The notes beneath the pieces are model-generated. The model searched no databases. It was not told where the DNA came from and saw nothing but the letters and a program-made list of their open reading frames with translations. Of a stretch of 64,000 bases of DNA, positions 4,050-56,100 are shown one piece after another. The DNA is taken from positions 62,001 through 126,000 of the forward strand of contig NZ_PXYA01000001.1 in assembly GCF_003841405.1 (NCBI RefSeq), written 5' to 3'. Position 1 is the first letter of the stretch, and every line of letters starts with the position of its first letter. The translations under genes and the position numbers were made by a program. This DNA is from Tetragenococcus halophilus subsp. halophilus DSM 20339 (GTDB lineage: Bacteria; Bacillota; Bacilli; Lactobacillales; Enterococcaceae).

Positions 4050-4267
4050 ATTAGGGGCAACTTTTACGATGTGCCGCCAATCTATAAAATATTGGAGGCA
4101 ACTTTAGAGATGTGCCCCCAATCTATAAAACATTGGAGGCAACTCTTACGATGTGCCGCCAATCCATAAAATATTGGAGGCAACTTTAGAGATGTGCCCC
4201 CAATCTATAAGATATTGGAGGCAACTTTAGCGACATGTCCCCAATCCGTAAAATATTAGGTCCAACT
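4050..4267. repeat. 41-bp tandem hairpin array, family A (five units plus a partial)
   Basis: Unit boundaries ('ATTGGAGGCAACT' or close variants) fall at 4050, 4091, 4132, 4173, 4214 and 4255, exactly 41 bases apart. Each unit is a 32-base imperfect inverted repeat, opening with ATTGGAGGCA and closing with TGCCCCCAAT-like sequence, followed by a 9-base AT-rich spacer. Units alternate slightly in sequence (TTTAGAGATG versus CTTACGATG loops). No start codon or ribosome-binding site makes this look coding. It fills most of the 415 bases between the Hsp31-like gene and the GyrI-like pseudogene. Confidence 0.9.
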
Positions 4268-4389
4268 TATCTTTCATTAAAAAATATAAACTGTTTTAAA
4301 AAAGGTAGTGAAAACCATTTTAAAGCGTGTTACCGTTATTGATGAGGAACGATTAGCTAATCTTCTCAATATATTTTGGGAGGTAACAA

Positions 4390-4852
4390 ATGAATTATCA
4401 AATTGAAATTTTGGATAATTACAAAATGGTTCATGTTAGAAATATAGGGAAGTATGGAAGCCCTGAGAACTTTCAAATGATGGAAAACTTAAAAAAATGG
4501 ATTTCTCATAATCATTTAGAAGAAGACAAAAAGACTGAAGGGATTATTGGCATTGCACAAGGTAATCCTCAGCTTACACCAGTTGAACAATGTCGATTTG
4601 ATTTAATGCTGTTTACGGATAAAGATTTTTCCCAGGACTCTCAAGTAAATATGGGGGGATTTTGAAGGTGGAAAGTATGCAGTATTTACTGTGACTCATA
4701 CCACAGAAGCGGTCGATTCATTTTGGAAAAATATAGGTAAAACTATTTCTCAAAATCATTTAGATATTATAGCAAATGCGCCTATACTTGAACGCTACAA
4801 AGAAGAGGAAGGCGAAGACAAGATCTGTGAATTTTTAATACCAATGAAATAA
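4390..4852 (+). pseudogene. GyrI-like small-molecule-binding domain protein, frameshifted at a G6 tract
   Basis: The first part (about 88 residues, starting MNYQIEILDNYKMVHVRNI, with ribosome-binding site GGGAGG) matches the effector-binding domain found at the C-terminus of AraC regulators and in GyrI-like proteins. The frame ends at TGA just after a run of six G at about 4653-4658. With five G the frame would continue as 'GDFEGGKYAVFTVTHT...' to the TAA at 4850-4852, giving a complete domain of about 154 residues. No helix-turn-helix region precedes it. Either a one-base insertion inactivated the gene or the tract length is variable. Confidence 0.75.
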
Positions 4853-4896
4853 ATTATTTTCGTTCATAAGTCATAAAAAGTTAAGGGTGAATATTA

Positions 4897-5886
4897 CTGA
4901 GTTATAAAAGCTTATATTATTCAGAATTTGGTCAACCGGAATTGGTTATCCAAGAAACAAATAGAAGAATTTCGCATTTAGAGGAAGATGAAGCGCTCAT
5001 TGAAATGATGATGGCGCCCATTAATCCTTCCGATTTGATTCCTGTAACTGGAGCTTACGCCCACAGAATTCCCTTGCCCAGTACAGTTGGCTACGAAGGT
5101 GTTGGAGTTGTTAAAAAAGTTGGAAAAGCAGAGAATCAGTCATTAATAGGTAAAATGGTGTTACCTTTAAGAGAAGAGGGAACTTGGCAAGAGGGAGTAG
5201 TAATGAAAGCTAATCAGTTAATTATTGTTCCAGAAACTATCGATTATAAAATAGCTTGCCAAACTTATATCAATCCTATTACGGCCTGGTTGTTGTGTAC
5301 TCGAGTATTTACATTAAAAAAGCAAGATTTTTTATTAGTCAACGCCGGGAATTCTTCGATTGGAAAGATATTTATTCAACTTGCAAATATTTTAGGCTTT
5401 AAAATGATTTCGGTAGTTAGAAACGAGCAATATCGAGAACCGTTAAAGAAATTAGGTGCGGATTATGTGATTAACTCGGGAATAGAAAACGTTTTTGATG
5501 CGGTCATGGCAATAACGAAAGGAAAGGGCGTTCAAGCTGCTATCGATATGATTGGCAATTCAGCTGGAACAACTTTAGCTCGCTGTGTCAGAAATGGTGG
5601 AGATTTCCGTACGATTGGTTTGCTTTCAGGTCGTCAAGTGGACTTTCAATATATCGCGAATCATTTAACTATTACAGCAAAAATGTTTCACTTACGACAT
5701 TGGAGCGAAAATTGTTCCCTTGAAGAATGGCAAAAGCAGTTTGAGACAATCTTCCACTTAATAGATAAAAGAGAGCTGCAGCTAACTTTTCCGCAAATTG
5801 TTTATCCCTTTAGTCAATATAAACAAGCCATACAAAAAGCCTTAGATCCAACGGTAAAAGATAAAGTTTATCTTTCGTTTAATTAA
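4897..5886 (+). CDS. Zinc-independent MDR oxidoreductase (enoyl reductase-like), likely CTG start
   Basis: Medium-chain dehydrogenase/reductase of about 329 residues. 'APINPSDLIPVTGAY' and 'STVGYEGVGVVKKVG' mark the N-terminal domain, and 'LLVNAGNSSIGKIFIQLANILG' the cofactor-binding fold; the pattern resembles mitochondrial-type trans-2-enoyl-CoA reductases. The nearest ordinary start is TTG 4942, but the frame is open upstream as 'SYKSLYYSEFGQPE', which is the conserved first strand of the family. AAGGGTGA lies 6 bases before a CTG at 4897, so I place initiation there. An upstream in-frame stop at 4888 limits other choices. Substrate unknown. Confidence 0.8.
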   Translation: MSYKSLYYSEFGQPELVIQETNRRISHLEEDEALIEMMMAPINPSDLIPVTGAYAHRIPLPSTVGYEGVGVVKKVGKAENQSLIGKMVLPLREEGTWQEGVVMKANQLIIVPETIDYKIACQTYINPITAWLLCTRVFTLKKQDFLLVNAGNSSIGKIFIQLANILGFKMISVVRNEQYREPLKKLGADYVINSGIENVFDAVMAITKGKGVQAAIDMIGNSAGTTLARCVRNGGDFRTIGLLSGRQVDFQYIANHLTITAKMFHLRHWSENCSLEEWQKQFETIFHLIDKRELQLTFPQIVYPFSQYKQAIQKALDPTVKDKVYLSFN

Positions 5887-6115
5887 GCACATAAGAATAC
5901 AAAACTAATGGGGTTAAAACGTTATAAGCACATAAGCTTACCGAAGTTATGTGCTTAATTTAAATGTTTATTGTAAAAATGGGAGATTTCTCCAAAATAA
6001 GCACATAAGATCGGCGAACTAGTGTGGTTATCAGCAGATAAGCACATAAGTATGCAAAAGTAGTGTGGTTAAATCAGGCTAAGCACATAAGTTTCAATAA
6101 GTTGTGTGCTAAATC
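5885..6115. repeat. 41-bp tandem hairpin array, family B
   Basis: 'AAGCACATAAG' recurs at 5885, 5926, 5999, 6040 and 6081; the distances are 41, 73, 41 and 41. Each occurrence begins an imperfect inverted repeat of about 31-33 bases closing with TTATGTGCTT, AGTGTGGTT or GTTGTGTGCT, followed by a spacer of about 10 bases. The copy at 5926 is almost perfect (AAGCACATAA / TTATGTGCTT). The array starts within the stop region of the MDR gene and extends to about 110 bases before the glyoxalase II-like gene. Its sequence is unrelated to family A. Confidence 0.88.
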
Positions 6116-6223
6116 TACATTTTGACAATTTTTTATCATAAAAGTTTGCTAGCTATGATTTAACATATATTCATATTTACAGTAAAATGAATATAAGAAA
6201 AATGATAGAAAGCAGGAGATAAA

Positions 6224-6931
6224 ATGACAGTGACAGCTTTAGAAGCTTTATCGGATAATTATATTTGGCTTTATCAAAAGGATCAAAACCTTGTAGTTGT
6301 AGACCCAGGAGAAGCGCAGCCTGTGCTGGACTATTTAGCTAATCATGAAGAATTACATTTGACAGCTATTTTACTTACGCATAATCATGCTGACCACACT
6401 GGCGGTGTAAAAGAAATCGTAGCTGTATATCCGGGTACTACGGTTTATGGACCGGAAGAGTGTCGGGCCTATGCTACAAATATAGTTCATGAGGGCGAAA
6501 CCATTGATTTACTCGATCACAAATGGGAAATTATGTCAGTACCTGGACACACAAATGGGCATATCGCTTATTTAGTGGAGGATAAAGTTTTTTGTGGCGA
6601 TGCTTTATTTATGGCGGGTTGTGGCAGAGTCTTTACAGGAGATTACCAAGCGCAGTTTGAGACAGTTAATAAATTTGGACAACTAGCTGATGATACTAAA
6701 GTATATGCAGCTCACGAGTATTCAGACACCAATTTACGTTTTGCCAAAGAAGTGGACCCCTCAAATTCAGCAGTAAGTAAAGCACTAAAGAAAGTTCAGC
6801 AACAAAGAGAAAATAATGAACCAACATTGCCTTCGACAATCGAAATTGAAAAAGAAATCAACCCATTTATTCGTGCGAATGATTTTGATGAATTTGTTCA
6901 ATTAAGAAATAAACGTGATGGATTCAATTAA
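6224..6931 (+). CDS. gloB: Metallo-beta-lactamase-fold hydrolase, hydroxyacylglutathione hydrolase-like
   Basis: A 235-residue binuclear metal hydrolase. The THNHADH motif has His53, His55, Asp57 and His58. Later ligands are in 'VPGHTNGHIAY', 'CGDALFMAGCGRVFTGD' and 'YAAHEYSDTNLRFA', all in the order of glyoxalase II. The C-terminal region 'EKEINPFIRA' matches the substrate-binding helical domain of that enzyme. Glyoxalase II hydrolyses S-lactoylglutathione or another acyl-thiol, completing methylglyoxal detoxification. Ribosome-binding site AGGAGA precedes the ATG. A TTGACA at 6122 could be a -35 element, but no good -10 sits at 17 bases. The true thiol cofactor is not known. Confidence 0.88.
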   Translation: MTVTALEALSDNYIWLYQKDQNLVVVDPGEAQPVLDYLANHEELHLTAILLTHNHADHTGGVKEIVAVYPGTTVYGPEECRAYATNIVHEGETIDLLDHKWEIMSVPGHTNGHIAYLVEDKVFCGDALFMAGCGRVFTGDYQAQFETVNKFGQLADDTKVYAAHEYSDTNLRFAKEVDPSNSAVSKALKKVQQQRENNEPTLPSTIEIEKEINPFIRANDFDEFVQLRNKRDGFN

Positions 6932-7014
6932 TCGTAAGTGAGTAATTATCGTTGACTTTATGTATATACATCGTTTTTCCTATATAAAGGAAACCTTTTT
7001 AAGGAGTGATCATA

Positions 7015-7278
7015 ATGAATAATATTAAAGGTCAAACTCGTATTACACAGTGGGGAAATTCGATGATTATTCGAATCCCAAGTTATATTGTAAAACAATT
7101 AGGTTTAGAAGATAATCAAGCTTTAACTGTAACTACTCGAAATAATTCAATCGTTTTAACACCTATAAAAAAACAGCCGACTAATATTCATGACCTTTTT
7201 GCGGACTGGCAAGATGACGGTCAACGTGATCATGAGTTAGATTGGGGGAAAGCAGAAGGTAACGCGTTGCCTTGGTAA
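7015..7278 (+). CDS. MazE/AbrB-family antitoxin-like DNA-binding protein
   Basis: An 87-residue protein with the swapped-hairpin AbrB fold: 'TQWGNSMIIRIPSYIVKQLGL' is the MazE/SpoVT DNA-binding signature. The acidic, tryptophan-containing tail (FADWQDDG...ELDWGKAEG) is the toxin-binding part of MazE-like antitoxins. Start at ATG 7015 with AAGGAG eight bases before it; the GTG at 7006 overlaps the ribosome-binding site. The toxin gene downstream is ruined, so this is an orphan antitoxin, which may still autoregulate or neutralise a related toxin elsewhere. Confidence 0.85.
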   Translation: MNNIKGQTRITQWGNSMIIRIPSYIVKQLGLEDNQALTVTTRNNSIVLTPIKKQPTNIHDLFADWQDDGQRDHELDWGKAEGNALPW

Positions 7279-7615
7279 CACAAGGAGATATTTTTATGTG
7301 AACTTTAATCCAAGGTGAAGCCATAAACAGAGGACCCGACGTCCAGCAATTACTTTAAGCCATGACATGGTGCAACAAACAAGTAATATGACAATTGTAG
7401 CCCCCGTTAGCTCAACAAAACGTGGTTTTCCCATGTATTATTCTTTAGAAAGTACCAAAGTTGTTTATGGAAAAGTTTTATTGGACCAAACAATTGCATT
7501 AAACCTACAAGCAAGAAATGTAACTAAAGCAGACATTGTGGATCAGGTTTCTAAAAAAGAATTAACTGAGATCATCGCTATTTATAAATTCTTATTTAGC
7601 GTTGATGGTGAATAA
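7279..7615 (+). pseudogene. MazF/PemK-type toxin, inactivated
   Basis: Pieces of a MazF protein can be read in different frames. 'GDIF' is followed by 'VNFNPR' and a stop, then 'RRPAITLSHDMVQQTSN' continuing in frame to the TAA at 7613-7615. At least two small indels and a TGA break the N-terminal third, and no start codon with a ribosome-binding site remains upstream of the conserved strand. The last 82 codons are open from an internal ATG at 7367 but lack the N-terminal catalytic Arg-containing loop. The gene therefore cannot make a normal toxin. Confidence 0.82.
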
Positions 7616-7710
7616 TACAGCTTTACTCATCTTTTAATTGTAGTAAATATGTGTATTAATAAGTTATTTTATTGTCTTTGTTGCTATGTTCAATTGCATA
7701 AAATTTTAAT

Positions 7711-7745
7711 AAAACCAGGTAGCGATTTTTGACTACCTGGTTTTT
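7711..7745 (+). terminator. Intrinsic terminator after the mazE/mazF remnant
   Basis: AAAACCAGGTAG (7711-7722) pairs with CTACCTGGTTTTT (7733-7745) around a T-rich loop, giving a 12 bp stem with a U-tail. Confidence 0.85.
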
Positions 7746-7859
7746 CTAATATTTTGTCAAAGTAATGCTACTATGCAAAATTATCATTTCGAACCGGAGA
7801 GTGGGTGTCCTTTTTTACTAAAGAAGTTTACAAATTAGATAACAGGAAACGGAGCAATC

Positions 7860-8453
7860 TTATTTATTAGCAAACTGATCGTTATTAAGATCGTCATTCC
7901 AAATATATTCAATATCAGAGGCAATTTTTTCTGCTGTATTTTTGCCAAGCTGATCTGCAATAAAGCCTAGTGCCATATCCATTCCGGCAGACACCCCTGA
8001 AGAAGTATAATATTTATCTGCTACTACCCATCTAGCATTTTCCTGCCAAAGGACCGATTCATTCACGGATTTGACCCATTCGAAAGCTCTTTTGTTGCTG
8101 GTAGCTTTTTTTCCATTTAAAAGTCCAGTTTTTGCTAGCAAGGCGGCCCCTGTACAAACGGTTAATACATTTGTCTCTGTTAGACTGATTTGCTTTAATC
8201 TTTCGATCCATTCATGATCGTTTACTAAGATTCTAGTTCCTTTGCCTCCAGGAAGAATCAAAATACCTCCATTTGTCAAATGAGTGATAGGTTGTGTCAT
8301 CATTTCCACTCCTTGGCTACTTTTAACAAGCCCACCTTCCATAGAGTAATAATTCAAATTATAGCGATCTTGTAAGCGTCCGAAAATTTCTACTACGCCA
8401 AATAAATCCAACGTTTCAAATGCCTCAAAAACGAAAAAATTTACATTGATCAT
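7860..8453 (-). CDS. DJ-1/PfpI family protein (paralogue 1)
   Basis: A 197-residue protein of the DJ-1/PfpI fold. 'LTVCTGAALLAKTGLL' carries the nucleophile-elbow Cys at residue 100. 'FETLDLFGVVEIFGRL' near the N-terminus matches the GATase1 domain also seen in AraC-type regulators and isonitrile hydratase-like enzymes. I place the start at ATG 8453, aligned with the paralogue at 12515, with GAGGAGG about five bases upstream; a second ATG lies one codon earlier. The two paralogues flank a block with an IS3 element and a cyclase gene. Enzymatic activity is not established by sequence. Confidence 0.85.
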   Translation of the reverse strand: MINVNFFVFEAFETLDLFGVVEIFGRLQDRYNLNYYSMEGGLVKSSQGVEMMTQPITHLTNGGILILPGGKGTRILVNDHEWIERLKQISLTETNVLTVCTGAALLAKTGLLNGKKATSNKRAFEWVKSVNESVLWQENARWVVADKYYTSSGVSAGMDMALGFIADQLGKNTAEKIASDIEYIWNDDLNNDQFANK

Positions 8454-8610
8454 CATTGTCCTCCTCAGAATTAATAGGGTTATTTTATCATAGAATAGAA
8501 AAAAACATACGAATAAAGCTATATGATGATTAAATATGATACATTTGAAAATAATTTTGAAAAAACGCTTACTATGAGTTAAATACAAATCAAAATAGAG
8601 GAGCTTAATT

Positions 8611-9033: not shown

Positions 9034-9103
9034 TTACTATCCGAAAAAGATGTAAATTTGATTAAAAACCTCAAAATTAGCAAAAGTCGGATAAGAAAAA
9101 GGG
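9034..9103. repeat. Hairpin repeat family E, left part (split by IS3)
   Basis: ACTATCCGA at about 9035 and TCGGATAAG at 9086-9095 form the same stem as the units right of the IS3 element, but with a longer loop (about 40 bases). The spacer is interrupted by the IS3 end at about 9104. Confidence 0.6.
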
Positions 9104-9271: not shown

Positions 9272-10180
9272 TTAGGCTGCTTGATAAAATCTCTCATGAT
9301 AAGTCATGGGAGGTAACACATTTAAACGTCGTTGAAAGCGTCGATGATTATAGTAATCTATATATTCGGTGATCATGTCGGTCAATTCTTGACGTGTTTC
9401 AAAGTGTCGACGATAATATTGCTCCCGTTTAAGCATACCCCAAAAACCTTCCATAGGGCCATTATCAATACATTTGCCCACGCGTGACATACTTTGAGTC
9501 ATTCCTAAATCGCGCAATTTTGTATGGAACTGTTTGCTTGTATATTGTTTGCCTCGATCACTATGAAAAATAGGTTGCGCTTTAGGCTCGGCCGTTACCG
9601 CTTGATCCAAAGTGTCTGTGACAAGGGAGAGGGGCATTTGATCACTGAGTTTATAAGCCACGATGCGTCGGTCATATAAATCAAGAATCGCACTTAAATA
9701 CATTCGGTGCTTCCGATCTCCGTTCCCATAACGAAATTCTGAAATATCCGTACACCATTTTTCATTCGGTGCTTCCGCATGAAAGTGACGATCAAGAATA
9801 TTTTCTGCCGTATGATAAGGATATTTCGCAGGGGTTGTCATACTATTGGCGGGTGATTTTATGGTCGATTGAATCTCTTCGTAACGACAAATATGCAAAA
9901 CACGTTTATCACTGACCGATAGGCCATAACGACCGTAAAGTTCGTCTCGAATGCGCCGATACCCCATATCTGGATGCGCTTGATGAATTTGTCGAATGGC
10001 TTGCGCCAATCGCTGATTTTTTCTCTCCCGATCACTTAATGGATGGTCACGCCAATGATAATAGGCAGAACGTGTGACTTGTAATAGGCGACATAGCGGT
10101 TGAATCGCATAGTTTTTTTCTTCATTTAAGTAAAAAATGATTTGATATTCCCTTAGGTGTTGGACTTGTCCGAGCGATTC
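9272..10180 (-). CDS. IS3-family transposase OrfB (DDE integrase core)
   Basis: Catalytic subunit of the IS3 transposase. 'RRIRDELYGRYGLSVSDKRV' is the HTH_21 domain. The DDE triad lies in 'KWCTDISEF', 'YLSAILDLYDRRIVAY' and 'GPMEGFWGMLKREQYY'. An internal ATG at 10009 gives only 245 residues; the frame stays open upstream ('QHLREYQIIFYLNEEKNYA') and overlaps the end of orfA. As usual in IS3 elements it is probably made as an OrfAB fusion by -1 frameshifting, so the given upstream boundary is approximate. Confidence 0.85.
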   Translation of the reverse strand, partial: ESLGQVQHLREYQIIFYLNEEKNYAIQPLCRLLQVTRSAYYHWRDHPLSDRERKNQRLAQAIRQIHQAHPDMGYRRIRDELYGRYGLSVSDKRVLHICRYEEIQSTIKSPANSMTTPAKYPYHTAENILDRHFHAEAPNEKWCTDISEFRYGNGDRKHRMYLSAILDLYDRRIVAYKLSDQMPLSLVTDTLDQAVTAEPKAQPIFHSDRGKQYTSKQFHTKLRDLGMTQSMSRVGKCIDNGPMEGFWGMLKREQYYRRHFETRQELTDMITEYIDYYNHRRFQRRLNVLPPMTYHERFYQAA

Positions 10181-10848
10181 CTCCTCTCGATTTCTTCCGC
10201 GGCTTTTAAAATATCATTTTCCATTCGTAAATAATCATTATGACGTTTGAGTTGGGCGTTCTCATCTCGCATTTTTTCCTCTGAGGTTCGAGAAGACAGG
10301 CTTCCTTTCCGTTTCCCTCGGCGATCTTCTAAACCTGCATAGCCCATCTGTTCATATTTCTGGACCCAATGATGAATATTTTGGTAAGGTACTTGATATT
10401 TGATCGCCATGCCTCGATAGTCTTTGTCATTCGCTAAACAATCCAAAACGATTTGGTAACGTTCTTTCTGCGTTGTCGTTCTTGTTTTACCCATGGAAAT
10501 CTTTTCCTTTCTTGTTTTAAAGTCTCCATAGGTATTATAACGCTTCAGCCACTCTGTAAGCGAACTTGGACTTCTTAAACCATACTTTTGGGCAATTTGC
10601 TCTAAGCTCCCTCGACCGTCTAAATAATCCCAAACAGCGTGTAACTTGGTTTCCCTTGAAAAATGAGGTTTTTTTATGGCGTTTTTTAGTCCAGCGGGGC
10701 CTTCATTTTGATATCGAATCACCCATCTTCTAAAAGCCGCTACGCTCACTTGCGCTTCATTGGCTGCCCCATGTTGACTGATTTCATCCCGAAGATAGTT
10801 TTCTACAATAGCGATTCGCTTTTCCTCGTTTGCTTCTTTACTTTGCAT
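10153..10848 (-). CDS. IS3-family transposase OrfA (helix-turn-helix)
   Basis: DNA-binding subunit of the IS3 element, about 231 residues. Several helix-turn-helix segments are visible ('AAFRRWVIRYQNEG', 'LRSPSSLTEWLKRYNTYG', 'VPYQNIHHWVQKYEQMG'). A C-terminal leucine-zipper-like stretch 'LKRHNDYLRMENDILKAA' fits the dimerisation region of IS150-type OrfA. Start at ATG 10848 is preferred because GGAGGGA lies 8 bases upstream; another ATG at 10863 precedes the ribosome-binding site. Confidence 0.87.
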   Translation of the reverse strand: MQSKEANEEKRIAIVENYLRDEISQHGAANEAQVSVAAFRRWVIRYQNEGPAGLKNAIKKPHFSRETKLHAVWDYLDGRGSLEQIAQKYGLRSPSSLTEWLKRYNTYGDFKTRKEKISMGKTRTTTQKERYQIVLDCLANDKDYRGMAIKYQVPYQNIHHWVQKYEQMGYAGLEDRRGKRKGSLSSRTSEEKMRDENAQLKRHNDYLRMENDILKAAEEIERRNRSDKSNT

Positions 10849-10911
10849 GCTTCTTCCCTCCATAAATTAGGATTTCCATTTTTTATTGTCCTATTTATGG
10901 TGAGCATACCA

Positions 10912-11034
10912 GGAAAATTACTATCCGAGAATGCAAAGACGGATAAAGAAAGCCATGGAAGACTATTCGAAAATGCAAAGATGGATAAAGAAAACCAGAA
11001 AGACTATCCAAGAATGCAAAGATGAATAAAAAAT
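10912..11034. repeat. 41/42-bp tandem hairpin array, family E, right part
   Basis: 'ACTATCC(G/A)AGAATGCAAAGA' begins at 10920, 11003 and, as the variant ACTATTCGAAAATGC, at 10962, spaced 42 and 41 bases. Each unit forms a short stem TATCC...GGATA with AAGA-rich spacers. Apparent ORFs across it on both strands only translate the repeats and have no ribosome-binding sites. Confidence 0.8.
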
Positions 11035-28010: not shown

Positions 28011-28106
28011 AATGGTGGTATCATTAAAAAGATGCCAGCAATTGAAAAATTATTGGAGGGACATCAAAAAAGTTCCCACCAATATTTGTAAATTATGGTG
28101 GGAACA
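28011..28106. repeat. Family A hairpin repeats (two full modules plus a half)
   Basis: A 32-base imperfect hairpin at 28011-28042 and another at 28052-28083 (ATTGGAGGGAC...GTTCCCACCAAT) are 41 bases apart. A third left arm starts at about 28094. Module length and spacing equal those at 4050-4267. It lies between the convergent adaA and yitT-like genes, where it may act as a terminator. Confidence 0.85.
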
Positions 28107-39494: not shown

Positions 39495-41381
39495 GTGTGC
39501 CAGGCATGGCATTTATCTAGCTAGTGAAAGTCTAGTCACGGGTAGTTACCGCCAAGTGTAGCGAGCCACAAGCCGAAATCAGCGATGATGGGGTGAAGGA
39601 AGTGGTGGCGCAAATCTCTTGAACCTACGCACAGGAACTTGATGAGGCTAAATGGTGGATAAGGCTGCATATCAAGCCGAAGTCCAAAAGGTAAACGTAA
39701 AACCAAGACAGTAAATCAAGAGGTTGTGGAGAGAAAGATAAGTGTCTTACCCTGGGAGATCTTACGGACGTTTGCGAACGGTCGAAAAAGGTTTGTCGTA
39801 AGAAGTCAGCCGAGGCCATAGTAGCTATGATATTACATGTAGTGAAGGGCTGAATGTTTGTATAGTGTGAATCGCTAGAAGAAAATATCCAAGCAGTCCG
39901 GAAACGAGGATACCCTAGAACGGTAGAACGTAACTATCGATGGGAAAAGTAGTGAGGACGATCTTGGATCCATCTACACCTAGAGGAGGAACAGCGCATG
40001 AGATTCATTGAAAAGATCACGAGTCATCAAAATATGAGACAAGCCATCGAGCAGGTCAGAAAGAATAAAGGCGCTCCGGGTGTTGATAAAATGACAGTCA
40101 ACGAACTTGACCATTACTTCTATCAACATGGACGAGACCTTGTTCAGGAGATTCGATCGATGACCTATCGACCTAAGGCAGTCAAGCGAGTCTATATCCC
40201 TAAAGCCGATGGAAAACAAAGACCTTTAGGGATTCCAAGCGTGGTAGACCGTGTGGTACAACAAGCAACCGCGCAACAACTGAGTCACATTTTCGATGTT
40301 CACTTCAGTGAAAGCAGTTATGGTTTTCGTCCCCATCGAAGTGCACATCAAGCGATTGGAAAAGCACTCGATTACTTGAATGAAGGTTATGAATGGCTCA
40401 TTGATATGGACATTGAGAAATATTTTGATACGGTTCATCATGATAAATTAATCTCGACCCTTAGAGAACGGGTCAAAGATAGAGAAACGCTTCACTTAAT
40501 ACGTGTTTTCTTAAAAGCAGGGATTATGGAAAATGGCTTTGTTCGTCCGAATGAAACGGGCGTTCCGCAAGGCGGACCTTTAAGTCCCATTTTAGCGAAT
40601 ATTTATCTGGACAAATTGGATAAAGAACTAGAAGCAAGAGGACTCTATTTTGTCCGTTATGCGGATGATACGGATATCTTTGTCAAAAGTGAGCGGGCAG
40701 CCAATCGTGTAATGAAATCTATTACGAGTTGGATTGAAAGAAAGCTTTTCTTACGAGTGAACGTCACAAAAACCAAGGTGGTACGACCGACACAGAGTCA
40801 ATTTTTAGGGTTTACCTTCTGGAAGAACCAGAAGGGTTGGCAGTGTAAACCGAGCAAAGTCAGTAAAACAAAGCTCTATGATAAAACGAAAGCCATCCTT
40901 AAAAGAAAACAGGCTGTGTCACGACCCTTAGCGGTGACATTCACGAAACTCAACCAAACGATAAGAGGCTGGATCAATTACTACCGTATCGGGAATATGA
41001 AAACCTATCTAGCAAAGTTTGGGCAATGGTTACGACATAAAGTCCGAGTGATCATCATAAAGCAATGGAAACTGCCACAACGAATCTATACGAATCTACA
41101 ACAATTAAACCGATTATTCAAATGCCATTTTACCAAAGAAAATATTTATAAGGTGGCAAATTCGAGATTAGGTTGGTATAGGAAATGTGGCATGGACGTC
41201 GTCAATTTTACCCTAAGTCCGAAAGTTTTAGCCATAAAGAAAAAGGATCGACCTGGATTGGTCAATCCTTTAAATTACTATCTTAATCAAGCGTGAAAAC
41301 AATACAAATGGAGCGCCGTATACGAGAAGCGTACGTACGGTGCGACGGGAGGGGCGGAAATTTATTTCCCCTCTACCCTAT
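39495..41381 (+). mobile_element. Group II intron, probably class C (IIC)
   Basis: The 5' end starts with GTGTGCC, the conserved group II GUGYG motif. The 3' end has a domain V-like hairpin at 41311-41343 (GAGCGCCGTA...TACGGTGC, with the CGC triad of class C introns). A domain VI stem (GGGAGGGG / CCCCTCTACCC) follows and ends near 41381. It carries one reverse-transcriptase ORF without an endonuclease domain. Insertion immediately after an intrinsic terminator is typical of class C. The 3' boundary is accurate to a few bases only. Confidence 0.88.
39998..41296 (+). CDS. ltrA: Group II intron-encoded reverse transcriptase/maturase
   Basis: A 432-residue reverse transcriptase. RT blocks are visible in order: 'KNKGAPGVDKMTVNEL', 'KRVYIPKADGKQRPLGIPSVVDRVVQQA', 'SYGFRPHRSAHQAI', 'WLIDMDIEKYFDTVHHDKL', 'GVPQGGPLSPILANIYLDKLD' and the catalytic 'FVRYADDTDIFV' with YADD at residue 221. 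The maturase X domain includes 'INYYRIGNMKTYLAKFGQWLRHKVRV'. No HNH endonuclease follows, as in class C proteins. AGGAGG precedes the ATG. It splices and mobilises the surrounding intron. Confidence 0.95.
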   Translation: MRFIEKITSHQNMRQAIEQVRKNKGAPGVDKMTVNELDHYFYQHGRDLVQEIRSMTYRPKAVKRVYIPKADGKQRPLGIPSVVDRVVQQATAQQLSHIFDVHFSESSYGFRPHRSAHQAIGKALDYLNEGYEWLIDMDIEKYFDTVHHDKLISTLRERVKDRETLHLIRVFLKAGIMENGFVRPNETGVPQGGPLSPILANIYLDKLDKELEARGLYFVRYADDTDIFVKSERAANRVMKSITSWIERKLFLRVNVTKTKVVRPTQSQFLGFTFWKNQKGWQCKPSKVSKTKLYDKTKAILKRKQAVSRPLAVTFTKLNQTIRGWINYYRIGNMKTYLAKFGQWLRHKVRVIIIKQWKLPQRIYTNLQQLNRLFKCHFTKENIYKVANSRLGWYRKCGMDVVNFTLSPKVLAIKKKDRPGLVNPLNYYLNQA

Positions 41382-43410: not shown

Positions 43411-43515
43411 ATGATAAATCTTTAAAAGTAATTAATGAAAAAACAACTTGCATTTTTTATCATAGGGTGGTAGGATAATTAAGGTGTTAAATGAAAAGCT
43501 AATATATTTATTTTT

Positions 43516-43588
43516 GGGCTGTTAGCTCAGTTGGCAGAGCAACTGACTCTTAATCAGTGGGTCGAGGGTTCGAGCCCCCCACAGCCCA
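43516..43588 (+). tRNA. tRNA-Lys (anticodon CTT)
   Basis: A full cloverleaf of 73 bases. The acceptor stem GGGCTGT pairs with ACAGCCC plus discriminator A. The D-arm is AGCTCAGTTGGCAGAGC, the anticodon arm ACTGA-CTCTTAA-TCAGT with anticodon CTT, and the T-arm GAGGGTTCGAGCCCCC-like. CCA is not encoded. A terminator follows at once. Confidence 0.95.
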
Positions 43589-43605
43589 TTGGGTGCCAAA
43601 CCCAC

Positions 43606-43809: not shown

Positions 43810-44004
43810 ATGTTCATTCAACAATCGAACGAACACTGTTTAAGCGTTAGGGTGTTCATTCAACAATCGAATGAACACTGTTTAAGCGTTAGAGTATTCA
43901 TTCAATAATCGAACGAACATTGTTTAAGCGTTAGAATGTTCATTCAACAATCGAACGAACATTGTTTAAGCGTTAGAGTGTTCATTCAACAATCGAATGA
44001 ACAC
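43810..44004. repeat. 42-bp tandem hairpin array, family C (five units)
   Basis: TGTTCATTCAA (one copy TATTCATTCAA) begins at 43811, 43853, 43895, 43937 and 43979, exactly 42 bases apart. Each unit forms a hairpin GTGTTCATTC-AACAATC-GAATGAACAC (a perfect 10 bp stem in the best copies) followed by the 15-base spacer TGTTTAAGCGTTAGA. Loop and spacer are nearly invariant. Non-coding on both strands as far as I can see. Confidence 0.92.
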
Positions 44005-44464
44005 TATCTCCCAACGTTTTTGTTCATTATATTTGTGTAGTCATAGAATTAAATTGAAAAATTGTACATCTGATTCATATTGATCTACTGGAGAAGATTG
44101 GTTTAATATATAGAAGTCACTAACTTCTAGAAAGTGTCTAAAATAACCTTTCATTCGTCTTTTACAGTTCTTTTACACATATAATCAAACCGATTCTCTA
44201 TATTGTTTAAAAAGAATAGGATTTCAACTGAGTATGACTCATTTTTTACGACCTTATTCTTAACGTTGGGGATCATATGGGCAACGCGTCATAAAAATAT
44301 ATTATTAAATATTTTTACTGCAAAGAATGTTCATTTTAGACTTTCTAACAAAAGAAAGAATCTGTAAGTATCCTAAATTTCTACAAACCTAAGCGTGAGC
44401 GCAAATCTTTCTAATAATATTGATGTTAGATTCGTTTTATATCTACATTTTCATCTTAACTATT
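44005..44464. other. Intergenic stretch without recognisable features
   Basis: Between array C and the ISL3 element. Only short broken reading frames, AT-rich, no ribosome-binding site linked to a plausible ORF. I see nothing further here. Confidence 0.5.
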
Positions 44465-46041
44465 AAAAAAGCTCTCCAATTTTATGGCTCTATAATTTCT
44501 AGTGTTGGTAAACAAGAATCAATTTCTTGTAGCCAATGCTAGTTTTTTTATGTTTTCTGAGCAAAATATAAAACAGACACCTTGAAAACTCGTAGAATAA
44601 AGTTACCAAACAAATATCCAAAGGAGTGTTTCAAGATGTCCATCTCTCATTATACTAAAGAAATCCTAGATATCCTAGATGTAAACCTAACTTTTGCAGA
44701 AAATTGTTTTCAAAAAGAAGCCATCAACGGCGACATTTGTTTTGTTTTTTATGGTCGGCTTTCTTATCGTCCGCAAGCCTGTTTTCACTGTGGCGAAGAA
44801 GAAACCGCCTGTTTAATGAAATGGGGGTTTAAGGAAGTGACGATTCAACTCAACGATGTGAGTGAATACAAAACCTTACTTAAAATGAAGAAGCAACGTT
44901 TTCGTTGTAAAACTTGCGGGAAAACGTCTATCGCCGAAACCAGTGTCGCAGATCGTCATTGTTCGATCGCTCGTCGTGTCAAACTCGCCATTGCAGAAAA
45001 ATTATCGCAACCCTTATCGATGTCAATGGTCGCTCGGTTGAAGCATGTTTCGCCGACAACGGTTTTACGTGTGCTTCACAGTTTTCAACCCAAACAGCTA
45101 TCTCCCAATACTTCCTTACCAGAAGTGCTTTGTTTTGACGAATTTCAATCGGTCAAACGGGTTTCTGGCGCCATGAGTTTTATTATGATGAACGGGGAAA
45201 CGCGGCAGCTCTTAGAGATTGTCGCCAATCGACAACTGCCTCATTTAGAAGCATATTTTGCACGTTATCCTCGAGAGGAAAGAGCCAAGGTGCACTATGT
45301 CGTTTCGGATTTTTACAGTCCGTATGCCTCCTTAGTCAAAACCCTTTTTCCTAATGCCCAGTTAGTCATTGATCGTTTCCATATGAGCCAACATATTGGA
45401 CGAGCTTTCCAACAACAGCGGAAACAAGTGATGAACACCTTTCACCGTCGGCAAAAGGAATATAAGCACCTCAAAAAATACTGGAAACTTCTACAGAAAA
45501 AAGCTTGGACGCTTGATTATAAAAATCGATATTGGCGGCCTAGTTTTCGGGATCATTTAACCGAGCAAGAGATTGTCGATCGCTTATTACGTTATCATTC
45601 TGCCCTTAGACAAGGCTATAAACTCTATCAATCCTTTCTTTCCGCATTTCATAAGCAAGACACAGCACGTTTTGATCAATTACTGAAAACCGATGGGTCC
45701 CAGCTTTCTGACCCGTTTCAGCCTGTAATCAAGACCTTCCGAAAATATCGAAAAGAGATTCATCTTGCTTTGACAGTGCCTTATTCTAACGGTCCTTTAG
45801 AAGGGTTAAATAATCATATTAAAGTGCTAAAACGAGTCGCTTATGGGTTCCATAGCTTTGAGAACTTTCGGCAACGGATCTTTTTATACCGAGGAAAATA
45901 TTTCCAACCTGGTTCCTTACCTATACAAGCGAAAAAAAGCAGCTAGACAATAGCGTCTAACTGCTTCCTTTATTCGTCGTGTTTTCTTTACCAACACTAT
46001 TTGACAAAGAGTCAATTTTATTAGACTTGGAGAGCTTTTTT
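44465..46041 (+). mobile_element. ISL3-family insertion sequence
   Basis: Inverted repeats AAAAAAGCTCTCCAA (left, 44466-44479) and its complement TTGGAGAGCTTTTTT (right, to 46041). Inner matching segments AGTGTTGGTAAA occur at both ends. It encloses one intact ISL3 transposase. A target duplication was not evident. Confidence 0.85.
44636..45946 (+). CDS. ISL3-family transposase
   Basis: A 436-residue transposase. The N-terminal zinc-ribbon has 'ACFHCGEEE' and 'RFRCKTCGKTSIAE'. A helix-turn-helix follows ('MSMVARLKHVSPTTVLRVLHSF'), then the DDE core: 'LCFDEFQSVK', 'HYVVSDFYSPYASLVKTLFPNAQLVIDRFHM' and 'VPYSNGPLEGLNNHIKVLKRVAYGF'. AAGGAG lies before ATG 44636; a TTG frame extension upstream has no ribosome-binding site. 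The reading frame is intact, so the element may still move. Confidence 0.93.
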   Translation: MSISHYTKEILDILDVNLTFAENCFQKEAINGDICFVFYGRLSYRPQACFHCGEEETACLMKWGFKEVTIQLNDVSEYKTLLKMKKQRFRCKTCGKTSIAETSVADRHCSIARRVKLAIAEKLSQPLSMSMVARLKHVSPTTVLRVLHSFQPKQLSPNTSLPEVLCFDEFQSVKRVSGAMSFIMMNGETRQLLEIVANRQLPHLEAYFARYPREERAKVHYVVSDFYSPYASLVKTLFPNAQLVIDRFHMSQHIGRAFQQQRKQVMNTFHRRQKEYKHLKKYWKLLQKKAWTLDYKNRYWRPSFRDHLTEQEIVDRLLRYHSALRQGYKLYQSFLSAFHKQDTARFDQLLKTDGSQLSDPFQPVIKTFRKYRKEIHLALTVPYSNGPLEGLNNHIKVLKRVAYGFHSFENFRQRIFLYRGKYFQPGSLPIQAKKSS

Positions 46042-51369: not shown

Positions 51370-53532
51370 ATGAGTTTAAAAACATTAAAAGATGTCAGTT
51401 ACTTTAAACTTAATAATGAAATTAATCGCCCGGTGAATGGTCAAATTCCGCTAAATAAGGATCAGGAAGCTTTAGAAGCTTTCTTTAGAGAAAACGTAGA
51501 ACCAAATACAATGAAGTTTGATTCTGCTATAGATAAGATGAATTATTTGGTCGAAAATGAGTTTTTAGACGAAACGTTTATTCAAAAATATACGCCAGAA
51601 TTTTTGGAAGAGTTTTATGCGTTTTTAGATAATCAAAATTTCCGCTTCCATTCTTTTATGGCAGCTTATAAGTTTTATTCCCAATATGCTTTAAAAACGA
51701 ATGATGGTAGCCAATATTTGGAAAGGTTTGAAGACCGCGTAGCGATTAATGCTTTGTATTTCGCTGATGGAGACGAACAGTTGGCGCTTGATCTAGCAGA
51801 TGAAATGATTCATCGACGTTATCAACCGGCAACCCCTTCATTTTTAAATGCCGGAAGAAAACGCGGTGGAGAATTGGTTTCTTGCTTTTTAGTACAGTTA
51901 ACCGATGATATGAACGCTATTGGTCGTGGTATTAACTCGGCGCTACAACTTTCTCGCATTGGCGGCGGTGTAGGCATTACATTGTCTAATTTGCGCGAAG
52001 CTGGTGCACCTATTAAAGGTTATGAAGGCGCCGCTAGTGGTGTTGTACCCGTTATGAAATTGTTTGAAGATAGCTTTAGTTATTCAAATCAATTAGGTCA
52101 ACGCCAAGGTGCGGGTGTGGTTTACTTAAATGTTTTCCATCCAGACATCATTAGCTTTTTATCCGCTAAGAAGGAAAACGCTGATGAAAAAGTTCGTGTG
52201 AAGACATTATCTCTAGGTGCAATTGTACCGGATAAATTTTACGAGCTTACAAGAAAAAATGAAGACATGTATTTATTTAGCCCTTACAGTGTTGAAAAAG
52301 AATACGGCGTCCCATTTTCTTATGTAGACATCACAGAAGAATATGATCGTTTGGTGCACAATCCAAATATTCGCAAAACCAAAATCCGTGCGCGTGAATT
52401 AGAAGATGAAGTTTCAAAACTACAACAAGAATCAGGTTATCCTTATATCATTAACATTGACACGGCTAATCGGGCCAACCCAATTGATGGTAAGATCATC
52501 ATGAGTAATTTATGTTCTGAAATTTTACAAGTACAAAAACCTTCAGTCATTAATGGCAAGCAAGATTACGAAGTACTTGGTACAGATATCAGCTGTAATT
52601 TAGGCTCAACCAATATTGGCAACTTAATGGACAGTCCTGATTTTGGAAAATCTGTGCAAACCATGACGCGTGCTTTAACTTTTGTGACAGATTCTTCAGA
52701 TATTGACGTTGTCCCAACCATTCAAAATGGGAACCATTTAAATCATACCATCGGTTTAGGCGCGATGGGCTTACACAGTTATTTTGCGAAAAATCATATG
52801 GAATATGGTTCTCCTGAATCTATCGAATTTACGGATCTTTATTTCATGTTGTTAAACTACTGGACATTAGTTGAAAGTAACAACATCGCAAAAGAACGGG
52901 GAACAACTTTCCATAACTTCGAAAATTCGGATTACGCTGATGGCAGCTATTTTGCTTCCTATATTGCAGATGCACCTCAACCAAAATCTGATAAAGTACA
53001 ATCTTTATTTGAAGGAGTCTTTATTCCAAGTGCAGAGGATTGGCAAGCGCTTAGCGACGAAGTGCAAAAATATGGTTTGTATCACCAAAACCGTTTAGCA
53101 GTTGCGCCAACGGGTTCAATTTCTTATATTAATGACACAAGCGCTAGTATTCATCCAATTACTCGTTTAATTGAAGAACGGCAAGAAAAGAAAATTGGGA
53201 AAATTTATTACCCAGCTGCTCATTTAGATAATGATACAATTGGTTACTACACTTCAGCTTATGATACCGATATGCGTAAAGTGATTGATATTTATGCTGC
53301 AGCACAAAAACACGTAGACCAAGGCATGAGTTTAACACTGTTTTTACGTTCGGAAATTCCTGAAGGGCTTTACGAATGGAAGACAGATACGAATAAACAA
53401 ACGACACGTGATTTGAATATTTTAAGAAACTATGCTTTTCATAAAGGCATTAAATCCATTTATTATGTACGTACGTTTACTGAAGATGAAGAAGAAATCG
53501 GCAGCAATCAATGTGAAAGCTGTGTCATCTAA
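51370..53532 (+). CDS. nrdE: Class Ib ribonucleoside-diphosphate reductase, alpha subunit
   Basis: A 720-residue catalytic subunit reducing NDPs to dNDPs. Active-site Cys residues lie in 'LVSCFLVQLTDDM' and 'GTDISCNLGSTNI'; the radical-bearing Cys is in 'IMSNLCSEILQ'. The C-terminal shuttle pair is in 'NQCESCVI'. 'APTGSISYINDTSASIHPI' is the conserved loop, and the C-terminal Tyr radical-transfer pair is in 'GIKSIYYVR'. No N-terminal ATP-cone is present, as usual for NrdE. It lies in order nrdH-nrdE-nrdF; the flavodoxin gene nrdI, usually part of this operon, is not in the window. Confidence 0.96.
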   Translation: MSLKTLKDVSYFKLNNEINRPVNGQIPLNKDQEALEAFFRENVEPNTMKFDSAIDKMNYLVENEFLDETFIQKYTPEFLEEFYAFLDNQNFRFHSFMAAYKFYSQYALKTNDGSQYLERFEDRVAINALYFADGDEQLALDLADEMIHRRYQPATPSFLNAGRKRGGELVSCFLVQLTDDMNAIGRGINSALQLSRIGGGVGITLSNLREAGAPIKGYEGAASGVVPVMKLFEDSFSYSNQLGQRQGAGVVYLNVFHPDIISFLSAKKENADEKVRVKTLSLGAIVPDKFYELTRKNEDMYLFSPYSVEKEYGVPFSYVDITEEYDRLVHNPNIRKTKIRARELEDEVSKLQQESGYPYIINIDTANRANPIDGKIIMSNLCSEILQVQKPSVINGKQDYEVLGTDISCNLGSTNIGNLMDSPDFGKSVQTMTRALTFVTDSSDIDVVPTIQNGNHLNHTIGLGAMGLHSYFAKNHMEYGSPESIEFTDLYFMLLNYWTLVESNNIAKERGTTFHNFENSDYADGSYFASYIADAPQPKSDKVQSLFEGVFIPSAEDWQALSDEVQKYGLYHQNRLAVAPTGSISYINDTSASIHPITRLIEERQEKKIGKIYYPAAHLDNDTIGYYTSAYDTDMRKVIDIYAAAQKHVDQGMSLTLFLRSEIPEGLYEWKTDTNKQTTRDLNILRNYAFHKGIKSIYYVRTFTEDEEEIGSNQCESCVI

Positions 53533-53557
53533 AGTTTAGAAACAAGGAGGCGCAAAA

Positions 53558-54526
53558 ATGGCAAACACTTATTATGAAGCCATTAATTGGAACGAAATCG
53601 AAGATTTTATTGATAAATCAACATGGGAAAAGTTAACTGAGCAATTTTGGCTAGATACGCGGATTCCTTTGTCAAACGACTTAGATGACTGGCGTAGCTT
53701 AAGTGAACAAGAAAAACAACTTGTGGGATATGTATTTGGTGGTTTAACTCTATTAGATACCATACAATCTGAAAATGGGATGGAGCGTCTTCGCGAAGAC
53801 GCTCGCACACCGCATGAAGAAGCAGTTTTAAATAATATTCAATTTATGGAGTCTGTTCATGCGAAAAGTTATTCTTCAATTTTTACCACTTTGAATACGA
53901 AAGCGGAAATTGATGATATTTTTGAGTGGACTAATACTAATGAATATTTGCAGAAAAAAGCCGAACGTATCAATGAAATCTATAAAAATGGTTCACCTTT
54001 ACAAAAAAAGGTAGCCAGTGTCTTTTTGGAAACTTTCCTATTTTATTCAGGTTTTTATACACCGCTGTATTATTTAGGAAATAACAAGTTGGCAAATGTG
54101 GCAGAAATTATCAAGTTGATTATCCGCGATGAATCAGTTCATGGTACCTATATTGGTTACAAATTCCAATTAGGATTCAACGAACTTTCTGAAAAAGAAC
54201 AAGAAGAAATGAAAAATTGGATGTATGATCTTCTTTTTGAATTATATGAAAATGAAGAACATTATACGGAACAACTTTATGACGATATTGGCTGGACCGA
54301 AGAAGTAAAGACCTTCTTACGTTATAATGCCAACAAGGCTTTGATGAATATGGGGCAAGATCCGTTGTTCCCTGATGGCGCGAATGATGTCAATCCGATT
54401 GTTATGAATGGGATTTCCACAGGAACCAGCAACCATGATTTCTTCTCACAAGTCGGTAATGGTTATTTGCTTGGAACTGTTGAAGCGATGAGTGATGATG
54501 ATTATATGATAGGATTAGATGATTAG
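53558..54526 (+). CDS. nrdF: Class Ib ribonucleoside-diphosphate reductase, beta subunit
   Basis: A 322-residue radical-generating subunit with a dimanganese or diiron centre. Metal ligands are in 'LTLLDTIQSENGM', 'FMESVHAKSYS' and 'FLETFLFYSGFYTPL' (with the radical Tyr nearby) plus 'LIIRDESVHGTYIGYKFQLG'. The C-terminal tail 'EAMSDDDYMIGLDD' docks to NrdE. AAGGAGG precedes the ATG, 25 bases after nrdE. A strong terminator follows, ending the operon. In class Ib enzymes cofactor assembly needs NrdI, which must be encoded elsewhere. Confidence 0.96.
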   Translation: MANTYYEAINWNEIEDFIDKSTWEKLTEQFWLDTRIPLSNDLDDWRSLSEQEKQLVGYVFGGLTLLDTIQSENGMERLREDARTPHEEAVLNNIQFMESVHAKSYSSIFTTLNTKAEIDDIFEWTNTNEYLQKKAERINEIYKNGSPLQKKVASVFLETFLFYSGFYTPLYYLGNNKLANVAEIIKLIIRDESVHGTYIGYKFQLGFNELSEKEQEEMKNWMYDLLFELYENEEHYTEQLYDDIGWTEEVKTFLRYNANKALMNMGQDPLFPDGANDVNPIVMNGISTGTSNHDFFSQVGNGYLLGTVEAMSDDDYMIGLDD

Positions 54527-54542
54527 TTAATAAAATTTTGCG

Positions 54543-54595
54543 CTAGGTATTTTATGTTTAACTTAACGATAAACATAAAATACCTAGTTTTTTTG
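54543..54595 (+). terminator. Strong terminator of nrdHEF
   Basis: An 18-base perfect stem (54543-54560 with 54570-54587) with a 9-base loop, followed by T7. Confidence 0.93.
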
Positions 54596-54627
54596 TTTCA
54601 TTTGAAAAATATTAATAAATAACTGCT

Positions 54628-54720
54628 ATTGGAGGCAACTCTGCAAACTTGCTACCAATTTAACTTATTGGAGGTAGATTAAAAAAGTTGCCACCAATAA
54701 TTATATAAAAGTGGAGGAAT
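54628..54720. repeat. Family A hairpin repeats (two modules plus a fragment)
   Basis: Two 32-base imperfect hairpins at 54628-54659 (ATTGGAGGCAAC...TTGCTACCAAT) and 54667-54698 (ATTGGAGGTAG...GTTGCCACCAAT), 39 bases apart, then a partial left arm near 54709. Same module as at 4050 and 28011. It lies after the nrdF terminator. Confidence 0.85.
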
Positions 54721-54829
54721 GTAGGGATAAATATGGATCATTTTATCTTGATACAAATTAATATAGAAATTTCCCCTCTTTATGATTTATACTTGAATAA
54801 ATTATAGAAAAATTTACTTAGGAGAAAAT

Positions 54830-55261
54830 ATGTTAAGCAATAAAATTGCGACACAGCAAGACGAAGGACAAATTATTGCCTTATGGGACAAAAGCGTGAC
54901 AGCTACGCATGATTTTTTAAGTCAAGAAGATAAAGTTCGAATTCGGAAAGAAATTCCAAGTTATTTTCCTTTTTTAGATATTCGACTTTGGTATGATATG
55001 GATAATTTGCTAGGTTTTAGCGGTCAAAATGAAAAATATTTAGAGATGCTTTTTATCGATCCCCAATTTACAGCTAAAGGTTATAGAACAGCTATTTTGC
55101 AAGAACTAATCACAAAATATGGTATTACTGGTGTTGATGTAAATGAACAAAATACTGTGGCTAAGAAATTTTATTTGAAAAATGGCTTTCTGATTATGGG
55201 TCGTTCCAGTGTAGACGGTCAAAACCGTCCATACCCTTTACTGCACCTAACTAATAGCTGA
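54830..55261 (+). CDS. GNAT family N-acetyltransferase (YjaB/PhnO-like)
   Basis: A 143-residue acetyltransferase. 'IIALWDKSVTATHDFLSQED' near the N-terminus is a pattern shared with YjaB-type enzymes. 'LEMLFIDPQFTAKGYRTAILQELITKYG' is the acetyl-CoA-binding motif A, although the usual Gly-x-Gly is reduced to KGYRTA. 'VDVNEQNTVAKKFYLKNGFLIMGRS' is motif B. AGGAGA precedes the ATG. The weakened pyrophosphate loop could lower activity. The acceptor is unknown. Confidence 0.85.
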   Translation: MLSNKIATQQDEGQIIALWDKSVTATHDFLSQEDKVRIRKEIPSYFPFLDIRLWYDMDNLLGFSGQNEKYLEMLFIDPQFTAKGYRTAILQELITKYGITGVDVNEQNTVAKKFYLKNGFLIMGRSSVDGQNRPYPLLHLTNS

Positions 55262-55265
55262 ACTG

Positions 55266-55593
55266 GGCTAGTCCCTCTACATGATGCGTCTTTTCTATTA
55301 GAAAGAACTGCGACTTGGTTTGCAGAAAAATGGAAGGCCTCTATTACAAGTTATAAAAAAACATACAAGACTGTATTAATAACTCTAACACCGTGCCCCA
55401 GTGGTATGTAGGCATGAATGCTAAAGACGAGATTATTTTAGGAGCAGGAGTAATTGGAAATAACTATCATAAACGTAAAGATTTAACGCCTAATGTATAT
55501 GCGTTGTACGTGGAAGAAAACTATTGGAAACAACGATTAGCTTCGATTATTTTAAATTTTATTCGTCAAGATTTTGAGCGAAGCGAGCGGTAG
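55266..55593 (+). pseudogene. Second GNAT acetyltransferase, degraded
   Basis: An N-terminal piece in one frame ('ERTATWFAEKWK') is followed, in another frame, by 'NSNTVPQWYVGMNAKDEIIL', 'GAGVIGNNYHKRKDLTPNVY' and 'ALYVEENYWKQRLASIILNF'. This matches a known GNAT subfamily up to the acetyl-CoA loop, where the expected R/Q-G-x-G/A is damaged ('KQRLAS') and the rest is lost after 'RQDFERSER'. At least one frameshift near 55385 and a C-terminal truncation make it non-functional. Confidence 0.7.
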
Positions 55594-55822
55594 ACAGTTT
55601 TTGTTTATAAATATTGCTTATGATTATATACGTTAGCTAGGCTCTATGTCTGAAAAGAGGTTCAGCAATTGTGTCTTCGACTTTCCATTTCCTCTGTTTT
55701 TTATAGTCCTTGCTTTTCAAATTTAGTTTATATTTAGAAACACTAAACTATAGTTTTTCTATAAGTGGGTAATCTATTTTCTAAGCGGTAAACATCAAAG
55801 ATAGAGAGTAAAATCCAAAACG

Positions 55823-56100
55823 ACTCCCTATGTTTGAAAAGATAGGGAACGTTTCTCAGATTTACTCCCTGAGAAATAAAAGACAGGGAATAGATTGAAA
55901 AAAGACTACCTGTTATTAGTGTAAATTAGCATAAAATTATATAATTATGGCAAAAAAGAAGAAACATAGGGGTTGAATAGCTGATTTACTCCCTATGTTC
56001 AACATGTTAGGTAGTAAAATTGCAATTTAACCCCTGAAAAGCCAAAGATAGGGAACGTTTCGTTAATTGACTCCCTGTAAATTGATAGAAACTATATCTG
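55823..56100. repeat. 41-bp tandem hairpin array, family D
   Basis: ACTCCCT or close variants begin at 55823, 55864, 55905, 55988, 56029 and 56070; the distances are 41, 41, 83, 41 and 41. A degenerate unit explains the 83. Each unit pairs ACTCCCT(AT) with (AT)AGGGAA or CAGGGAA about 20 bases later, followed by an AT-rich spacer. The sequence is unrelated to families A-C. It fills a 970-base region with no intact gene. Confidence 0.85.

Follow-up and report, generated by a model that had tools for sequence, protein, structure and literature searches.

Tandem arrays of 41–42-bp dyad units in Tetragenococcus: candidate dispersed binding sites with conserved spacing

Dispersed repeats in bacteria are usually described by their sequence or by their hairpin. 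Enterococcus faecalis, which belongs to the same bacterial family as Tetragenococcus, contains the EFAR elements, palindromic intergenic repeats of 42–650 bp. Here, we describe tandem arrays with a unit of 41 or 42 bp, falling into several families (designated by letters), in a stretch of 64,000 nucleotides from the 2.6-Mb genome of Tetragenococcus halophilus subsp. halophilus DSM 20339 (G000:C1:62001-126000, hereafter the window) and in its relatives. Each unit of every family contains one inverted repeat, and it is the spacing that persists while the sequence changes. Such persistence would point to a chromosome-binding assembly in this food-fermentation genus, and the arrays form a natural set of variants on which the reading of periodic DNA by proteins can be tested.

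The centromere of the F plasmid, sopC (parS-F), has twelve tandem repeats of 43 bp, and ParB-F binds its ten inverted repeats of 16 bp (PMC6238139). The arrays resemble sopC in their tandem units of about four helical turns (41/42 versus 43 bp), sopC having nearly one protein-binding dyad per unit, but they differ from it in occupying many chromosomal loci, in forming several site families, in having 2–11 units (family A) and in the lack of an extra ParB. sopC demonstrates that a large complex can be nucleated by this kind of geometry. A precedent for a protein that reads spacing is BusR, a tetrameric c-di-AMP regulator that recognizes GAC-N22-GTC and whose binding is abolished by a change of +5 or -10 bp; a T. 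halophilus BusR site is cited in the same paper (PMC8517857). REP/BIME elements with their Y1 (RAYT) transposases are likewise dispersed, extragenic, palindromic and clustered (PMC3733652), whereas in the arrays described here the arms do not covary, A units never stand alone within the sample and the 41/42-bp period is fixed. Pneumococcal BOX elements are likewise modular and intergenic, and the number of copies of their tandem central module varies (PMC3049150); however, BOX is bounded by boxA/boxC and is predicted to fold as RNA, and no shared end modules were noticed by eye at the array edges. Arrays of this kind were not described in the titles and abstract openings of the literature on Tetragenococcus tandem or inverted repeats, most subscription literature lying outside the search.

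The initial annotation of the window had claimed at least five repeat families with a 41–42-bp unit and one inverted repeat per unit, an architecture unlikely to recur by chance. As such arrays, families A, B and C and the copy of E at 10920 stood, whereas D is degenerate (its ACTCCCT/ACTACCT-type starts were recognized by eye, and no row of Tandem Repeats Finder (TRF) reaches a score of at least 40) and the E copy at 9034 is a single widely spaced inverted pair with no tandem array. Distinct tandem arrays with a period of at least 25 bp and at least 2.2 copies (TRF) were then collected from the window, from 20 further stretches of the same genome and as many from two congeners (each 20 kb long, 400 kb + 400 kb), and from an outgroup comprising six other Enterococcaceae genomes (800 kb in 40 stretches). 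The period was 41 or 42 bp in 20 of the 23 arrays of the Tetragenococcus sample, the others having periods of 27, 33 and 88 bp, and in none of the five such repeats of the outgroup, which also counts as a difference from EFAR. The architecture thus exceeds chance, as had been claimed, and is genus-wide in the Tetragenococcus DNA sampled. In the samples searched, the arrays are restricted to Tetragenococcus. Because ten of the 20 stretches from the same genome were picked for matches to family A, and at least three stretches of G003 and G005 overlap already known matches (G000–G008 denote genomes, and L with a number a sampled stretch), array density in this sample is not unbiased; selection for A does not explain the arrays of C, E, F, G and H.

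Several further measurements agree on the period. Spacings between hairpin centres peak near 20–21, 41–42, 62–63 and 82–84 bp in the window, in the stretches chosen for A and in G005, while the ten other stretches of the same genome and G003 show the period weakly and the six other Enterococcaceae genomes do not show it. An exact pattern (an A unit and the next half-site) that allowed 32 to 50 bp matched 11 stretches, all from Tetragenococcus, and every match implies 41 bp except for one (42 bp). Within chains of family A, the links measure 41 (90), 42 (13) and 40 bp (1). Consecutive spacings between units with at least 66% match to the reference are 41 (98), 42 (3), 82 (4) and 83 bp (2) in A; 42 (25) and 84 bp (1) in C; 41 (25) and 42 bp (1) in F; 41 (15) and 82 bp (2) in G; and 41 bp (6) in K. 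TRF gives a row for 13 C arrays, each with a period of 42 bp, and none for the C place in L175. No lone A unit (at most three mismatches) was present among 17 clusters in 864 kb, which comprise 16 chains of 2–11 units and one pair at 39 bp, ten of the stretches having been chosen by array matches, which favours arrays in this count.

Longer spacings also recur. Family B is a higher-order repeat in which three units, where complete, are followed by a longer link, and 11 such links, found in five species and counted without the window copy of L043, measure 73 (8), 72 (2) and 75 bp (1). In the window, the B array consists of two units, a 32-bp linker (about 5966–5997) and three units, with a TRF row at 5997–6108 (41 bp) and a period of 155 likewise detected. 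One H array in G005 has spacings of 41-73-41, and an exact search of nine Tetragenococcus genomes for spacings of 53–81 bp returned that locus alone, at 73. Lengths of 41, 42 and 73 bp would lie near four, four and seven helical turns, respectively. The mean pairwise identity of nine B linkers is 0.59 (versus 0.50 when shuffled), with 0.72–0.95 within groups and mostly 0.44–0.67 between groups; their constant length is only suggestive of selection, because intergenic insertions and deletions occur about once per 15 substitutions (8 versus 121 in four short alignments).

With regard to what is conserved within a unit, the family A unit is ATTGGNGGCA, 12 bp, TGCCNCCAAT and then a 9-bp spacer. 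At eight of its ten arm pairs, the consensus is kept in 84–98 of 100 units, and the loop centre and the spacer are variable. Since these units had been found by their arms, an orthologous array found by its flanks was compared in three pairs (consensus units of the DSM 20339 genome, G004 and G007): the arms agree at 15, 16 and 15 of 16 positions, the loop at 8, 9 and 10 of 12, and the spacer at 3, 9 and 3 of 9.

The initial annotation had read the inverted repeats as hairpins. When Watson-Crick pairs within units were counted and compared with arms shuffled among units in seven families, this reading gained no support in six, which showed no excess of pairing: 1486 observed versus 1493±8 shuffled in A, 492 versus 502±7 in B, 485 versus 526±8.5 in C (below the shuffles), 95 versus 93±5 in D, 239 versus 240±3 in F and 159 versus 161±2 in G. 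Only K (13 units) showed a small excess (88 versus 83.5±2.2), and in L038 the arms of a single H unit appear, by eye, to carry compensating changes. Covariation was likewise absent from 46 distinct A units (score 0.064 versus 0.064±0.010 shuffled; 87.6% paired versus 88.7%), 33 of which have no base pair at arm position 6. A search of the window with Rfam models at gathering scores returned parts of a group II intron and a tRNA, and nothing else. The conserved property is the half-site sequence, not the base pairs, and the arrays are probably not hairpins; inverted repeats should not be named hairpins without a covariation test.

As half-sites are conserved without pairing, the dyads are naturally interpreted as sites bound in double-stranded form. 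With moderate confidence, we consider the elements to be dispersed arrays of sequence-specific double-stranded sites for one or more multimeric proteins, with dyads about four turns apart. Each unit would present two inverted half-sites of ~10–14 bp, neighbouring dyads being 41 or 42 bp apart. In the simplest case, a single protein or a set of related proteins that requires two or more dyads four turns apart would bind neighbouring dyads on one face of the DNA as multimers and build a nucleoprotein array. Arrays may grow and shrink by recombination between units, and selection would hold the half-sites and the spacing. Inference extends to the existence and multimeric state of a binding protein, to phasing on the helix as the reason for the period, to sites and protein having evolved together, and to any role of the arrays. 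The earlier suggestion that a multimeric protein reads a period of about 41 bp gains from the conserved half-sites, the near-exact period, the lack of lone A units and the spacing of ~73 bp, but no such protein was found.

The families had also been described as unrelated in sequence and hence convergent, which holds in part. In B, C, F and H (and K), the motif ATGT occurs 8–11 bp outward from the dyad axis, in one register. Because K overlaps F arrays, the test was repeated without it, and none of 5000 column permutations and none of 5000 random registers was as good when only B, C, F and H were used. For C, the axis was picked from two possible ones, and H comprises five units; D and E rest on 11 and 5 units. 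For A, G and D/E, on the other hand, no relation to the ATGT group could be detected. Two copies of ACAT-N15-ATGT at 41 bp were found at 82 sites. Among 395 Lactobacillales genomes, these sites lie in five, each of them one of the eight Tetragenococcus genomes in the sample, and the reversed control gave no site in the 395 genomes. A core common to B, C, F and H in a fixed register means that common descent explains their period.

Unit-number variation, for which the initial annotation had proposed a test between strains, was observed between relatives, and it takes the form of whole-unit differences at one locus. The C array beside tRNA-Lys has five units in the window, three in G005 and two in G004, while array A has five in the window, seven in G004 and five in G007. 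In G002, the F array beside a cold-shock gene is shorter by exactly 41 bp (96% identity overall). Another F array, present in G001 and G002, corresponds to about one degenerate unit in the DSM 20339 genome, with flanks 98% and 90% identical to those of G002. Comparison of families by locus gave one case in which they replace each other: the interval between the cold-shock-domain gene and an RNase J-like gene (named by eye) contains F in the T. halophilus group and B in G003 and G008. A copying mechanism may seed new arrays. No target-site duplication was recognized at the sites of missing arrays (B in G007, and A in G005 at a thioredoxin-like gene), which have no clean junctions.

The arrays sit at gene 3′ ends and at convergent junctions. 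Genes were called by a simple open reading frame (ORF) rule, and 64 arrays of A, B, C, F, G and H with both neighbours (nine of 88 arrays removed as duplicates) were compared with 485 background gaps. The array contexts were 28 convergent, 33 codirectional and 3 divergent, versus 88, 288 and 109 in the background; the convergent excess (Fisher, p 1.3e-5) and the divergent deficit (p 4e-4) carry optimistic p-values because orthologous loci are not independent. With D, E and K included, the counts were 31, 35 and 4 (n=70). A terminator-like hairpin lies within 120 bp of the edge in 11 of 31 arrays, as compared with 15% of random genomic (not intergenic-only) positions, and some arrays lie beyond the terminator, as judged by eye. 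All-against-all comparison of two ORFs per side gave mostly orthologous housekeeping neighbours, with no shared DNA-binding or recombinase gene by eye.

If the dyads are indeed protein sites, a role in chromosome organisation or insulation at convergent junctions could be envisaged by analogy with sopC, and reading of the spacing by analogy with the BusR molecular ruler. A tentative extension, which we hold to be possible but doubtful, is that Tetragenococcus chromosomes have a dispersed centromere-like nucleoprotein system. It would consist of dozens of small arrays in several site families and of related ruler-type proteins whose DNA specificity turns over, while the assembly that they build holds the geometry (41–42 bp, and the ~73-bp links in B and H), so that spacing, not sequence, would be conserved.

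A number of observations weigh against protein-read arrays. Inheritance alone could account for the period that B, C, F and H have in common, and the tandem ACAT-N15-ATGT pattern is absent in G003, G006 and G007. Family E has a period of 42 bp in the window and of 41 bp in L106, 13 of the 104 links in A measure 42 bp, one A pair is spaced at 39 bp, and A has no 31- or 52-bp spacings, which would be possible if helical phase alone mattered. Among the 46 A units, pairs changed on both sides (3 versus 1.9±0.6 shuffled) and further pair types (12 versus 10.3±1.1) are slightly above expectation, and mismatch types are uneven in A (G-T 122, A-C 77) and G (17 and 6), though less so in B, C, D and F, and they number 35 and 43 in a smaller oriented A set. 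B is missing in G007 and one A array of G003 is missing in G005; since orthologous loci can lack an array or hold a collapsed one, no individual array is essential. A single protein would hardly recognize the half-sites of A, G and D/E in addition to those of the ATGT group. No binding protein was found, the ParB, Y1 transposase and BusR-type families showing no expansion or link: ParB_N occurs once per genome in eight of nine Tetragenococcus (twice in G008) and one to three times in 32 other genomes, and TrkA_C, the BusR-type effector domain, two to four times in Tetragenococcus versus zero to five elsewhere.

The likeliest alternative, although we consider it improbable as a whole, is selfish or neutral satellite DNA that spreads, undergoes unequal recombination and has inherited its period from one founder, with no host reader. 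Presence, absence and whole-unit differences between relatives, the core common to B, C, F and H, higher-order repeats of 82 and 123 bp in A arrays, and placement where insertions harm least are all as expected from it. Satellite DNA does not account so readily for arms that stay conserved while loop centre and spacer diverge (in the small flank-found case; other units were found by arms), for a 41/42-bp length kept while spacers change, or for A, G and D/E having no detectable relation to the ATGT group.

Sites such as lox and dif have inverted arms around an asymmetric centre, and the unit could be the core site of a tyrosine-type recombinase whose action adds or removes whole units. H units of ~13-7-13 bp, A centres that are asymmetric and mostly in one orientation per array, and the difference of exactly 41 bp at one locus agree with this geometry; such sites need neither an array nor a fixed spacing, and no recombinase gene is shared among the flanking ORFs compared (two per side), which makes the proposal improbable. 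RNA or DNA hairpin elements selected for base pairing (terminators, mRNA-stability elements or cruciforms) are the most improbable, because the inverted repeat in each unit, the nearby terminator-like hairpins, the slight excess in K and the H unit in L038 are opposed by six families without an excess of pairs (A, B, C, D, F and G, with C below the shuffles), by the unpaired arm position 6 in A and by arrays beyond the terminator.

Several described systems were considered as identities for the arrays and rejected. For a sopC-like ParABS centromere, there is no cognate ParB-type protein beyond the chromosomal ParB in the eight genomes with a single ParB_N. An origin from plasmids or phages was not supported by the A array in L012, which has no match in either at E<=1e-5. 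The BusR operator GAC-N22-GTC is not in the family consensus units by eye (H has GAC-N19-GTC), and TrkA_C is not expanded. REP/RAYT fails because a stem-loop maintained by pairing would show covariation, which six of seven families lack, and because the draft genome G007 has no Y1_Tnp match at E<=0.001, yet has A, B and C matches. A CRISPR array needs unique spacers of ~30 bp, whereas the 9-bp A spacer is common to the units.

The positions of the arrays in the window are listed in Table 1.

Table 1. Arrays of the window and an adjoining terminator-like hairpin
Feature	Position	Strand	Remarks
Terminator-like hairpin of the gene upstream	3990..4027	+	directly before array A; consensus match only
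Family A array	4050..4245	+	five dyads, exactly 41 bp apart; TRF row 4056-4257, 41 bp
Family B array	5884..6120	+	units at 5884, 5925, 5998, 6039, 6080; spacings 41-73-41-41
Family E array	10920..11030	+	42 bp, 2.7 copies (TRF); adjoins IS3-like element
Further family A pair	28011..28083	-	41 bp; absent from the initial annotation
Family C array	43811..44005	+	42 bp, 4.6 copies by TRF (five dyads); downstream of tRNA-Lys (43515-43589)
Further family A pair	54628..54698	+	39 bp apart, irregular spacing; absent from the initial annotation
Family D, first degenerate block	55823..55920	+	starts 55823, 55864, 55905 (41 bp), by eye
Family D, second degenerate block	55988..56090	+	starts 55988, 56029, 56070 (41 bp), by eye

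Around array A, the sequence of G001 (L050, ~4000–4760, versus window 3940–4420) is 98% identical from inside the array rightward and has a different left flank, as if a rearrangement ended inside the array. The GyrI-like gene downstream of array A (4390–4852) is present as two ORFs, 4390–4665 and one from 4691, and is possibly a frameshifted pseudogene. The IS3-like element next to the E array (rve, HTH_21) occupies 9272–10863, and an ISL3-type transposase gene (PF01610) lies at 44582–45946, downstream of the C array. The group II intron (Rfam matches, 39576–41381) surrounds a reverse transcriptase/maturase ORF at 39998–41296 (RVT_1, GIIM).

Other repeats were encountered in the sampled stretches. 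A different dispersed element of ~70 bp, sometimes in tandem at 88–92 bp, is found at L020:15267-15336, L018:11166-11383 and L032:16765-16944, with dozens of matches across Tetragenococcus; that one element occupies the three places is a reading by eye. In other Enterococcaceae, tandem repeats of 99–122 bp in about two copies occur at L136:14489-14733, L138:10056-10283, L154:16229-16487 and L139:4224-4453, which we take, as a guess, to be perhaps EFAR-like. In L216 (G004:C6), a run of N interrupts an H array and represents an assembly gap or a masked stretch. In addition, L224:197-388 (G006) contains a 42-bp tandem repeat of 4.4 copies, which stands outside the named families and may be coding.

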